From contig NZ_LUKF01000001.1 in NCBI RefSeq assembly GCF_001592755.1, forward strand, positions 98,774 to 162,773: DNA of 64,000 nt. Direction: 5' to 3'. The notes below the pieces were generated by a model that was given only the letters and a program-made list of their open reading frames with translations, ran no database searches and was not told where the DNA came from. The translations under genes were made by a program, and so were the position numbers. Source of the stretch: Bdellovibrio bacteriovorus. GTDB lineage: Bacteria; Bdellovibrionota; Bdellovibrionia; Bdellovibrionales; Bdellovibrionaceae. This document shows, in pieces, positions 20,479 through 60,881 of this stretch (within the stretch, counting starts at the first letter, position 1; every line of letters begins with the position of its first letter).

Positions 20479-21132
20479 ATGAACCTTTTTAGATTGGCCT
20501 TAATCGCATGTATGGTTTTCGCGGGCTCCGTGAGTCCCGCTGCAGGCAGCAAGAAACTTGTCGACGACAAAGCTTTTGAATTGGCTTACGCCGGAAAAAC
20601 CAAAGAGCTTCAGAAATCCGTAGATGCGGGAATCAACATCAATAAGCCCAACGAAAAAGGCGAAACTCTTCTTATGACCGCAGCGTCTAGCGGCCAGATC
20701 GACGTCGTAAAATTCCTGCTTTCTAAAAAAGCCGACGTCACTATCAAAGACAAAGATCAAAAGACCGCTTTGTACTATGCGCTCACCAACGAGCAGCCTG
20801 AAGTTTCAAAAGCCTTGATTGAAGCCAATGCTCCTTTGAATGATTTGAATGAGCTAGGCGACAACGCCCTGACTCTCGCTTCGTCATTGAACGACCACGC
20901 CACAATGAAAGTGCTTTTAGCTAAAGATGCCTCTTTAGTGAATAAAGGAAACTCCGAAGGCAAAACTCCTTTGATGGAAGCTGCCCGCCACGGAAACGCT
21001 GAAACGATCAAGATTTTGTTAGACGCCGGCGCTGATAAAAAAGCCAAAAATTCATCTGGAAAAACAGCTTTAGATATCGCAACAAAAGCGCAAAACCAAA
21101 AAGCCGTCACTCTACTTTCCGCAAAAAAATAA
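20479..21132 (+). CDS. Exported ankyrin-repeat protein
   Basis: A 217-residue protein with a signal peptide (cleavage near residue 24, AAG) and about five ankyrin repeats. They show the usual G-x-T-x-L-M-x-A-A and V-x-x-L-L pattern (GETLLMTAASSGQIDVVKFLL, split here only by description). In the Bdellovibrio literature an ankyrin-type protein protects the predator from its own DacB-like prey-attack enzymes. The immediate linkage to a PBP4-type gene makes a comparable self-protection role an attractive inference, though that known protein is from another locus. Confidence 0.9.
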   Translation: MNLFRLALIACMVFAGSVSPAAGSKKLVDDKAFELAYAGKTKELQKSVDAGININKPNEKGETLLMTAASSGQIDVVKFLLSKKADVTIKDKDQKTALYYALTNEQPEVSKALIEANAPLNDLNELGDNALTLASSLNDHATMKVLLAKDASLVNKGNSEGKTPLMEAARHGNAETIKILLDAGADKKAKNSSGKTALDIATKAQNQKAVTLLSAKK

Positions 21133-21152
21133 ATCACAAAACATAATTGAAT

Positions 21153-21189
21153 AAGAAGACGATATCCGAAAGGATGTCGCTTCTTTTTT
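21153..21189 (+). terminator. Intrinsic terminator after the ankyrin gene
   Basis: A stem of about 13 bp (AAGAAG-CGA-ATCC pairing with GGAT-TCG-CTTCTT, one bulge and one G-T pair), GAAA loop, and a run of six T after the stem. Confidence 0.8.
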
Positions 21190-21200
21190 GCGCCTGGCAA

Positions 21201-21352
21201 CTTTGGGAAGGTAAGGATTTTTGGTATTCTTATCTGAAGGAGGCCTTTGCCGGCGCCACGATGGCGCGAACCGCACGAAGTGCGGCGGCAACTGAGCCCG
21301 GATGGCGTGCCTCCGAAAGGTAAGAATACCAAAAATCCTTACCTTCCCAAAG
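21201..21352. repeat. 152-bp folded element with perfect 32-bp terminal inverted repeats
   Basis: Arms at 21201-21232 and 21321-21352 are exact reverse complements over 32 bp. Inside, GGAGGC (21239-21244) pairs with GCCTCC (21309-21314). Further in, TTGCCG (21247-21252) pairs with CGGCAA (21286-21291) and encloses two perfect hairpins: GCGCCA-CGA-TGGCGC (21253-21267) and CCGCAC-GAA-GTGCGG (21271-21285). The whole has a branched, cloverleaf-like fold on either strand. It contains no gene. It could be a non-autonomous mobile repeat (MITE- or REP-like), a structured RNA, or a complex terminator. No target duplication is obvious at its edges and no second copy was noticed in this window. Confidence 0.85.
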
Positions 21353-21372
21353 CCCCGCCCGGAGACAAAATA

Positions 21373-21392
21373 GGCGCTCGTCCCTGAGCGCC
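21373..21392 (-). terminator. Intrinsic terminator of sodC
   Basis: GGCGCTC / GAGCGCC, 7-bp stem with a 6-nt loop. On the minus strand it is followed by TATTTTG. It lies just downstream of the sodC stop. Confidence 0.7.
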
Positions 21393-21405
21393 CGTGCAAT
21401 CTAAA

Positions 21406-21966
21406 TTAATTTGCGCGGTCCGGAGTTTTTACGACTCCGCAAGCGATTCGCTTTCCTGAAGCTCCTGCAGGTTGGCTTTTGTAGTCGTCGCCTTTTTCAT
21501 GCACGACGACCGAAGTGCCTTCAGCTCTTAGCAGTGAGTTCGGGCCCGATAATAGAGAGATGTTTTTATTAATTTCTTCCAAGTGACCGCGACCGCTTTT
21601 CACTTCGACATTCTTAAAGTCCCCAGCGTGCGGTCCCCCCTTTACTTGGCCGTGTTTTTTCTTATCGGGGTTGAAGTGATCACCCGCAGATTTGAACTCC
21701 GGCGGCAGACAGCTTCCTTTTTCATGAATGTGAAACGCATAGGTGCCATCTGGCATACCGGTTAGATTCACGACCGTTTTTACACCTTCGGCTTCTTGAG
21801 TGAAGTTCACGTCGCCCACTTGTTTTCCTTGAGCATCTTTCAAGATGACTGAAACTGGAGGCATAGGTTTGTCATGTGCAGGTTTTCCTGCAGGACCTTT
21901 GGATTCCTGCGCTTTTACTCCACCTGTTAGTCCAAGTATGAAGAGAAAAAAGATCATGCTTCTCAC
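21406..21966 (-). CDS. sodC: Periplasmic Cu,Zn superoxide dismutase
   Basis: A 186-residue exported enzyme; the signal peptide ends near residue 19 (VKA). Metal ligands are visible in YAFHIHEKGSC, in SAGDHFNPDKKKHG and in GGPHAGD, with a late VVHEKGDDY His and a GKRIACGVV Cys for the conserved disulfide. It dismutates superoxide in the periplasm and may protect against oxidative bursts of prey or hosts. It stands alone, with its own terminator. Confidence 0.95.
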   Translation of the reverse strand: MRSMIFFLFILGLTGGVKAQESKGPAGKPAHDKPMPPVSVILKDAQGKQVGDVNFTQEAEGVKTVVNLTGMPDGTYAFHIHEKGSCLPPEFKSAGDHFNPDKKKHGQVKGGPHAGDFKNVEVKSGRGHLEEINKNISLLSGPNSLLRAEGTSVVVHEKGDDYKSQPAGASGKRIACGVVKTPDRAN

Positions 21967-59016: not shown

Positions 59017-59111
59017 CGGAAGATTTCATTTAGCAGTGCATATGGACTAACGTCTATATTTGTCACTATACTTCCTAATGTGATGAAGGTATTAGATAAT
59101 AGACTTGAGGT

Positions 59112-59843
59112 GTGAACTTGGAGAATAAACTTAAGAATCCTCCTATCATAGAAGCTATTGTAGATTTTATTTTCGAAAATAATTTTGACCCAAAATCTTA
59201 CACCTTAATGTGCAATTACCTTAAGCCTTTGTCGGAACGTTCTGAACGGATACAAAATTATCAAATTCAGGTTGGCGCAGAAGAAAATTCCGTACCACAA
59301 GTTAAGAAAGCCGAAGGCCAAGGCCAGAGATATTTTTTTGAATCAGGAAAGTATGTAATCACAATTAAGGACAACGGCATCACTTTCGGGAGGCTTAAAC
59401 CTTACTCAAGCTTCGTAGACTTTAGAAACTGGATTGAATCAAATCTAAGGAAATTACCACTTCCTTCTGAGCTTAAAGTTCTTCGTGTGGGTGTGAGGTA
59501 CATTAATTCATTTAGCGTACCATCTTCGTCTAGCTACGCTAGAGATTATCTTTTCAACATTCCACCTAGTCCTCCGGGTTTAGATGAATTTCCCATCGAC
59601 TTCGTTAGTCGCATTTCAGTGCCCATTCCTGATCTCGCAGCCATGAGCATATTGACTCAAACCTGGAATCCGGCTTCTAATCCAAAAGAGAGCAGTGTTA
59701 CCATTGACATCGATGTTTTTCGACTTTTTGAAAAAAGCCAGCCGATATCAGATACTTGGGATACAATTTTAGGATTGAAAGCTAAACTTAATAGTATATT
59801 CTTCCGAACAGTAACAAAAAGAACATTGGATACCTTTCTATGA
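59112..59843 (+). CDS. TIGR04255-like protein of unknown function
   Basis: A 243-residue protein. The start NPPIIEAIVDFIF and the segments YVITIKDNGITFGRLKPYSSF and VGVRYINSF match the pattern of the sporadically distributed TIGR04255 family as I recall it. No signal peptide or membrane helix. The start is GTG 59112 or, with better ribosome spacing, TTG 59118. First gene of an A+T-rich cassette of three overlapping genes that interrupts the menaquinone cluster. Function unknown. Confidence 0.8.
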   Translation: MNLENKLKNPPIIEAIVDFIFENNFDPKSYTLMCNYLKPLSERSERIQNYQIQVGAEENSVPQVKKAEGQGQRYFFESGKYVITIKDNGITFGRLKPYSSFVDFRNWIESNLRKLPLPSELKVLRVGVRYINSFSVPSSSSYARDYLFNIPPSPPGLDEFPIDFVSRISVPIPDLAAMSILTQTWNPASNPKESSVTIDIDVFRLFEKSQPISDTWDTILGLKAKLNSIFFRTVTKRTLDTFL

Positions 59844-60310
59844 CATATAATTTTGATTATGAAGTTGGAAGCCCCAGCGTAACTCGCCCCGCAGCTATGT
59901 TCGCTATTGTTGTCGACAAAGATAAATCCACCGCGTTCACCACTGACGCAAAAGAAGCTTTAGTAGAAGAAGTTGAGCATTTTTGGCGAGAAAATACCTC
60001 CGGCCAATCGGATAATTTTGATACTCCGGTATCTTATTTGACGTACTCTAACGCACTATTTTTTCTTCGATTATTACCTCTTGCGCAATTACCTCAAGAA
60101 GTTTTACCCATCTCAGAGGACGGTTTTTTGTCCTTCGAATGGAACAATCAGGATGGAAGATCTCTATCTATAGTTATTGCTGATGAAAAACTCTTTTTCG
60201 CAGCTCTGTTAAACAATGGTAGCCGCCTGAAAGGTTCTGCTCAGTTCGATGGAATTAAAATCCCCACGCATGTTGTTGATGCCATTAAATCCACATTGAA
60301 CAATGAATAG
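59840..60310 (+). CDS. Unknown protein, cassette gene 2
   Basis: A 156-residue soluble, acidic protein with no recognised motif. An N-terminal third is polar, the middle contains helix-like FWREN and FFLRLLPLAQLP, and a C-terminal beta-rich part has SIVIADEKLFFAALLN. It overlaps the TIGR04255-like gene (ATGA) and the following gene (8 bp), which indicates one translationally coupled operon. Confidence 0.7.
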   Translation: MTYNFDYEVGSPSVTRPAAMFAIVVDKDKSTAFTTDAKEALVEEVEHFWRENTSGQSDNFDTPVSYLTYSNALFFLRLLPLAQLPQEVLPISEDGFLSFEWNNQDGRSLSIVIADEKLFFAALLNNGSRLKGSAQFDGIKIPTHVVDAIKSTLNNE

Positions 60311-60746
60311 TACACAGCCGGCACTAGTAGGTGATACGGAAAATATTAATAGATATATTTTCTCTAGTTCCCACTATAATCAAAACAGAGCAAAGTGGCC
60401 TGCGTTTAAGCCTTATCAGTCGGAAGTCTCTGTGATGAGAGTTCAAGGCTTGAATTATGATCAAATTAAGCAAATAGGTATCGAATTTGTTGGCGTTGGC
60501 AGGGGAAAACCACCAAAAGCTTGGGTAGAATTTAAGGCTCTAGAAGTAAGAGTTTTAGAATATCCAGATAAAAAGAAATTGTCACTAGATGTAATTCCAG
60601 AAACTACTCATCATAATCGTCACGCAAACATTAAAGATTTATCGAAACAAAACTACGAAGATTGGGTAGAAGAAGCGAAAATTCTCGCTGAGAAAATACC
60701 AATGACTCTATTTGAAATTCCTGAAACCACCCCTTCTGAAAGTTGA
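60303..60746 (+). CDS. Unknown protein, cassette gene 3
   Basis: A 147-residue soluble protein, basic in the middle. Segments such as YDQIKQIGIEFVGVGRGKPPK and WVEFKALEVRVLEYPDKK suggest a small alpha/beta fold. A His-rich turn (ETTHHNRHANI) follows. No family recognised. It ends the three-gene operon; an A+T-rich gap of about 135 bp follows. Confidence 0.7.
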   Translation: MNSTQPALVGDTENINRYIFSSSHYNQNRAKWPAFKPYQSEVSVMRVQGLNYDQIKQIGIEFVGVGRGKPPKAWVEFKALEVRVLEYPDKKKLSLDVIPETTHHNRHANIKDLSKQNYEDWVEEAKILAEKIPMTLFEIPETTPSES

Positions 60747-60881
60747 AAAATTATTTCTTTCACAGCTTAATTAAAATATCTCGCTTAAGTGGCCACAAGC
60801 TATTGCATTATAAGTAACAAGCTACCCCGTTGACCGTAAAAGGCCCCAGCGTAAATCCGTCGCTCGAAGCGAAAACCCAAT

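Follow-up and report, generated by a model that had tools for sequence, protein, structure and literature searches.

The window analyzed here, 64,000 nucleotides of Bdellovibrio bacteriovorus DNA, contains two convergent genes, one for an ankyrin-repeat protein (ank; 20479-21132, + strand) and one for a Cu/Zn superoxide dismutase (sodC; 21406-21966, - strand). Between them lies a perfect inverted repeat with 32-bp arms (21201-21232 and 21321-21352, + strand), the right arm being the reverse complement of the left, that encloses a cloverleaf. Pairing extends on the left to 21235 with one G.T, and the same inverted repeat, when scored longer, covers 44 nt at 91%. An earlier note had described a cloverleaf-like element with perfect 32-bp arms at 21201-21352, and we confirmed this. 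The window has no other palindrome of this kind: no second inverted repeat in the 64 kb has arms >14 bp at a spacing <200, and the runner-up within 200 bases has arms of 14 bp. Folded as a single strand, the element reaches -98.8 kcal/mol (z = -14.0). As the note had also stated, each flanking gene has its own terminator: a terminator-like hairpin with a T-run follows ank (21160-21189, hairpin 21160-21179, + strand) and a terminator-like hairpin follows sodC (21393-21372, - strand), both outside the element.

The inner part of the element comprises a GGAGGC/GCCTCC stem and a TTGCCG/CGGCAA stem enclosing two triloop hairpins, and it harbors a conserved 70-nt cloverleaf core (21242-21311, + strand; 97.6 bits with covariance model R1) with covariation over 107 distinct cores. 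The stem that bears the two triloop hairpins (5' side 21247-21252, partner 21286-21291) changes two-sidedly in 3 of its 6 pairs in alignment A2 and in 5 of 6 in alignment A6. On the same + strand, hairpin 1 (21253-21267; alignments A2 and A6) reads GCGCCA-CGA-TGGCGC, hairpin 2 (21271-21285) reads CCGCAC-GAA-GTGCGG with a GNA-type triloop, and hairpin 3 (21296-21306) reads GCC-CGGAT-GGC. The two hairpins with 3-nt loops (CGA and GAA) were correctly noted, but we count six helices rather than the five reported. A further motif at the outer 3' edge, AAAGCCCCGCCCGGAG (~21349-21364, + strand), is common to other copies when compared by eye, with a consensus of about AAATCCCCGCTCGAAGC; this motif belongs to the element, which should be taken to reach slightly past the limits first given.

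Searching the genome with the element returned 17 other places, nearly all matching the inner part only, besides a match to its own reverse complement. All but one of these copies have a long inverted repeat of differing sequence around the shared core; in the remaining one (L009/L037) the core is enlarged and the arms are further out. With a covariance model of the 70-nt core, 26 copies were found in the same genome. The genome-wide search for the arm and the inner hairpins that the note had proposed thus found the core in 26 copies and the arm sequence at its own site only. Elsewhere in the genus, the same model detected the core in 21 of 23 genomes, each with 2-28 copies. Two genomes filed under Bdellovibrio (G002 and G003) have zero copies. 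Outside the genus, one other genus of the family has 4 copies; of the 59 relatives examined with the core model, the 35 not yet mentioned have none. Similarly, a strict pattern run against GTDB, one genome per species, matched Bdellovibrio records only. A phage or plasmid origin of the core was rejected, as neither the phage nor the plasmid collection gave a match. The element belongs to none of the families tested, and we found no description of the family in the open-access literature, where absence is no proof of novelty. The repeat family is real and apparently undescribed. A single copy with the same neighbors in all relatives, the finding said to weaken the mobile and RNA readings, is not what is seen.

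Read 5' to 3' on the + strand, a copy shows a loosely conserved ATTTG edge and then an arm of 30-35 bp. An internal loop of about CGAAG leads into the head, which is followed by CGAAGC, the partner arm, CAAATCC, and another CGAAGC; the whole element measures 150-190 bp. The head is composed of five helices; among 107 distinct copies, 98.3% of its cells are paired and 21 of its 23 pairs change two-sidedly somewhere. Because core length varies by 1-2 nt among copies, there is no conserved reading frame, and protein coding was rejected.

The head is conserved while the sequence of the stem differs at every site. Arms align over at least 20 bp in 124 of 126 copies (mean alignment length 41 columns, ~91% complementary, ragged ends included), and nearly every copy has ~30-35 bp of near-perfect arms. 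However, the left arm of one copy can be paired with the right arm of another in 0.2% of combinations, the best being an ortholog. The left-arm sequence of the window copy matches only its own site and its own partner in the genome, and each of the 26 left arms of this genome likewise matches its own two places only, with the next hit at E = 0.4. The arms are therefore not guides to other genes, and none is a recent copy of another; we discarded the idea that they derive from or target other genes. Terminal inverted repeats shared between copies, the hallmark of a MITE, were not found; only short outer motifs are common to the copies.

Orthologous copies reveal how the arms change. Arm changes were two-sided in 25 cases and one-sided in 0 among six orthologs of L019, 31 and 0 among four orthologs of L012, and 5 and 0 among three orthologs of L033. 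Over 24 pairwise comparisons, arms underwent 56 double changes from one Watson-Crick pair to another, compared with 6 changes from Watson-Crick to G.U, and 29 one-sided changes to non-pairs (10 A.C and 19 other). Some of these non-pairs stem from one hybrid, L112 in G018, whose right arm and downstream sequence are identical to those of L013 in G000 and whose left arm differs, with loss of pairing, as if a recombination crossover had taken place inside the head. In the head, the 107 distinct cores gave 361 two-sided and 4 one-sided changes; by comparison, RNase P RNA, aligned as a control from 22 Bdellovibrio genomes, gave 132 and 84. The share of G.U was 0.25% in the head and 7.8% in RNase P RNA, the head being GC-rich (~73%), a property that alone lowers G.U, and its A6 alignment being fitted to a model trained on G.U-free copies, such that a few G.U pairs may be hidden. 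The differences between the head and RNase P RNA correspond to Fisher p values of 2e-36 and 7e-49, counted over cells, which are not independent events. We also considered hypermutation of the arms. In the two closest genomes, mean arm identity is 0.90 versus 0.80 at 4-fold sites of the adjacent genes; since the arms are on average more conserved than these sites, hypermutation was rejected as a general trend. Arm identity is instead bimodal, ranging from 1.00 to 0.72 plus gaps, with some arms identical and others replaced in blocks, which fits homogenization in jumps. Polymerase template switching at quasipalindromes and short inverted repeats homogenizes arms in this manner (PMC8604942, PMC7202029). 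Finally, at 8 of 19 loci the head resembles a paralogue more than its ortholog, which suggests that heads are exchanged between loci.

Several features bear on which strand folds. On the + strand, inner and middle arm mismatches favor G.T over A.C (65 versus 27) and G.A over C.T (90 versus 6), which suggests that one strand is selected for folding in addition to being homogenized. The excess of G.T over A.C is confined to the inner and middle columns (G.U equals A.C when all arm columns are counted) and carries little weight; the few one-sided changes in the 24 arm comparisons likewise show no excess of G.T over A.C. Computed stability also favors the + strand over the - strand, in 105 of 125 copies under DNA parameters and in 83 of 125 under RNA parameters. 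Hairpin 2 is mostly closed by a GAA, AAA, or GCA triloop; among DNA triloops, C-GNA-G stands out for its stability. The mismatch bias, the stability of the + strand, and the triloops weakly point to folding of single-stranded DNA. We also examined whether hairpin 1 could be a CsrA decoy, and rejected this idea: its loops are mostly CGA rather than GGA, and the presence of CsrA in 24 of 24 genomes of the genus lends it no support.

We favor, with moderate confidence, a model in which the element belongs to a family of repeated extragenic palindromes in Bdellovibrio that act at the DNA level and whose arms are kept matched by template switching. Both the DNA-level action and the template switching are inferred from the footprint of paired changes. 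In this model, replication would leave a strand single, allowing the element to fold, and the polymerase would switch template between the arms. A mutation in one arm would then be erased or copied into the other, such that the stem would stay complementary while its sequence drifts. The head would be kept by selection, by ectopic conversion between copies, or both. A footprint of this kind could also arise from strong selection for Watson-Crick pairing. Such long palindromes may persist for want of SbcCD, which cuts long hairpins. The SbcD model TIGR00619 scored above cut-off in none of 24 Bdellovibrio genomes but in 8 of 14 controls, although this is a single model for which five controls also fell below the cut-off and with which a divergent SbcD could be missed. 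Bdellovibrio may thus be without SbcD, the palindrome nuclease, and long palindromes would be tolerated if SbcCD is indeed absent. A further-reaching version of the model, which we regard as possible but hold only tentatively, is that the copies constitute a new class of bacterial repeat, selfish or domesticated single-stranded-DNA cloverleaves with a putative Bdellovibrio protein as recognizer: private, self-correcting palindromes whose two arms are rewritten jointly by template switching in a genus devoid of SbcCD.

An alternative that we judge unlikely, yet the strongest of those considered, is that the element is a structured RNA, either a 3'-UTR element or a small RNA, with a stem selected for pairing and a head that binds a protein or affects mRNA stability. 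The earlier note had raised an RNA among its readings. Consistent with it, the helices of both head and arms are supported by covariation, and the same locus keeps a copy in several species. However, G.U pairs and one-sided changes, the intermediates expected of a structured RNA, are nearly absent, unlike in RNase P RNA from the same genus, and the reading is disfavored for that reason. Covariation alone is no proof of RNA, as replication that copies one arm into the other also makes helices covary; near absence of G.U intermediates provides a simple test that separates covariation at the DNA level from that of RNA. The loops are triloops in place of RNA tetraloops, no sigma-70-like promoter was found in 21000-21600, and no Rfam family reaches its gathering threshold. 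A weak match to the TwoAYGGAY RNA in the window was not reproduced at six other loci, and this candidate was dropped.

The position of the copies is part of the favored description of the family and also speaks for an RNA. They favor the spot just behind the 3' end of a gene, with the head in a preferred orientation: by simple gene calls, 78 of 126 copies have an opposite-strand gene that ends no more than 110 nt away on their 3' side, and 15 of 126 have a same-strand gene that ends equally close on their 5' side. Divergent pairs of copies often belong to two convergent genes with one copy apiece. The neighbors, named by eye, are ordinary genes (GroEL, EF-G, RpoN, MurC, S9, and TrmL), and a rough look by eye at single-contig genomes, whose contigs were assumed to start at the origin, revealed no clear trend in replication-strand bias. 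In G005, which we take to be B. bacteriovorus HD100, one copy (1339161-1339234, minus strand) falls within APsRNA6. This published HD100 transcript spans 1,338,787-1,339,441 on the plus strand (Karunker et al. 2013, PMC3627812). The same table (PMC3627812) gives seven further sRNAs, and no listed HD100 copy overlaps any of them. APsRNA6 (L199, 1127-1781) begins upstream of a 92-codon frame and continues well past the element, and may therefore be a small mRNA carrying the palindrome in its 3' region. The 92-codon frame near its start encodes a small membrane-like protein. APsRNA6 represents the gene-sense strand, but mismatch tolerance favors the opposite strand for folding.

A second alternative, and an improbable one, is that a Y1 (TnpA-REP/RAYT) transposase mobilizes the element in single-stranded form, which would make it a miniature mobile element of the REP type. 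REP elements are 20-40 bp long with a GTAG or CGTC tag (PMC3733652) and usually exceed 100 copies per genome (PMC2817692). Like REP, BIME, and REPIN elements with their RAYTs, the Bdellovibrio copies are dispersed extragenic palindromes, 26 in this genome, for which folding of one strand is favored and which sometimes occur as divergent pairs. Moreover, Y1_Tnp genes are present in 21 of 24 genomes of the genus, and presence or absence of a copy differs between close relatives. In contrast to REPs, the element measures 150-190 bp, is found in few copies (26 here, 2-28 in congeners), and has a long stem private to its locus. Conservation by position around the core reveals neither a GTAG nor a CGTC tag that stands out. 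Nor is there linkage to Y1: none of the ten Y1_Tnp genes fetched has a copy within 1.5 kb, copy number is uncorrelated with Y1_Tnp (Spearman 0.24, p 0.25), and G007, G012 (a complete genome), and G016, which are without Y1_Tnp, still have 11, 11, and 6 copies. Copies in the same genome have no common arms, unlike recent products of transposition. The proposal that the element is a REP moved by TnpA-REP is accordingly not supported, while the broader suggestion of a repeat is borne out by a genus-wide family that has 26 copies in this genome and is absent from the sodC-ank gap in four relatives.

Comparison of this site in relatives, another step the note had advised, identified G018, G020, G006, and G017 as having no element between sodC and ank. 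In the close relative G018 the gap is short, and in the other three the gene pair is kept. The piece missing from G018 is ~240 bp, larger than the element, and has TATTTT repeats at its bounds, and thus deletion is as possible as insertion. L027 is also vacant in G018, where the missing piece again exceeds the element and has short repeats at its bounds, making deletion equally possible. At L037, likewise vacant, the junction is of another type. L023 and L035 have kept the element, and L024 has lost hairpin 1. A remnant of a second copy, consisting of the last 25 bases of its outer 3' end (60847-60871, + strand), lies in the window itself. It adjoins a 1.8-kb insert (59017-60846) with three genes, one of the TIGR04255 family and two without an NCBIfam match, that replaced most of this copy; G018 holds the intact counterpart (L114). 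Copies are lost or replaced by deletion or by an insert, and gains must presumably occur.

These sites also bear on a third and still less probable explanation, in which another enzyme moved the element and the arms were made at insertion, host flank being copied into an inverted duplicate by snap-back synthesis. Such an origin would account for the different arms at every locus, and the vacant G018 site at L037 loosely resembles the arm. However, the vacant counterpart of the site in the window has no arm sequence, and conserved motifs (ATTTG ... CAAATCC, CGAAGC) lie outside the arms, which argues that the arms are part of the element. In addition, orthologous arms change in place, and a one-time arm-making event is therefore not needed. 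Lastly, the location behind genes, often between convergent ones, could suit a large transcription terminator, but a terminator function is unlikely, and this reading very much so, because the copies read have no T-run past the stem, both neighbors in the window have terminators of their own (the two hits of the scan), and APsRNA6 runs well past its HD100 copy.

Returning to the favored model of DNA-level palindromes, the family shares traits with several known systems. ERIC, YPAL, and NEMIS are long palindromic bacterial repeats whose stem sequence is common to their copies. Like them, the Bdellovibrio element is intergenic, genus-restricted, 100-200 bp in size, hairpin-forming, and non-coding; unlike them, its copies have only the head in common and not the stem. 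The attC site of integrons is a palindrome behind a gene end that is read as folded single-stranded DNA and has a stem that varies between sites. The Bdellovibrio palindrome similarly lies behind a gene end with a stem that varies by site, but no cassette array was seen and its conserved part is the head rather than stem-end boxes. As in template-switched quasipalindromes (PMC8604942, PMC7202029), the arms stay complementary and change in multi-base jumps; those are isolated sites, whereas Bdellovibrio has a repeat family with a conserved head. Nematomorpha mitochondria also have many long perfect inverted repeats per genome, which are coding and for which the published abstract describes no common head (PMC6649704). 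By analogy, the family is best seen as working like quasipalindrome homogenization combined with a REP-like repeat. The ~150 natural palindromes fetched, with more in the genomes, have known sites and many ortholog series in which concerted arm change can be followed over time, and they would make it testable how template switching shapes genomes without SbcCD. In addition, Bdellovibrio, under study as a living antibiotic, gains a repeat family that has no name as yet.

Copies vary in their cores. HD100 often has a second core subtype, GACCTCCGTGGGCGCC...GGCGTGTC, there with arms that look less perfect; this subtype is also common among the few loci read from G011, G021, and G022. At L182, L187, L188, and L195-L198, all from B. 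bacteriovorus strains, the core is of a subtype with GACC...GTGTC ends, and arms at the same locus differ blockwise among the strains. Finally, at L037 (1432-1566), and also at L139, L148, and L155, extra hairpins enlarge the cloverleaf heads up to 135 nt.
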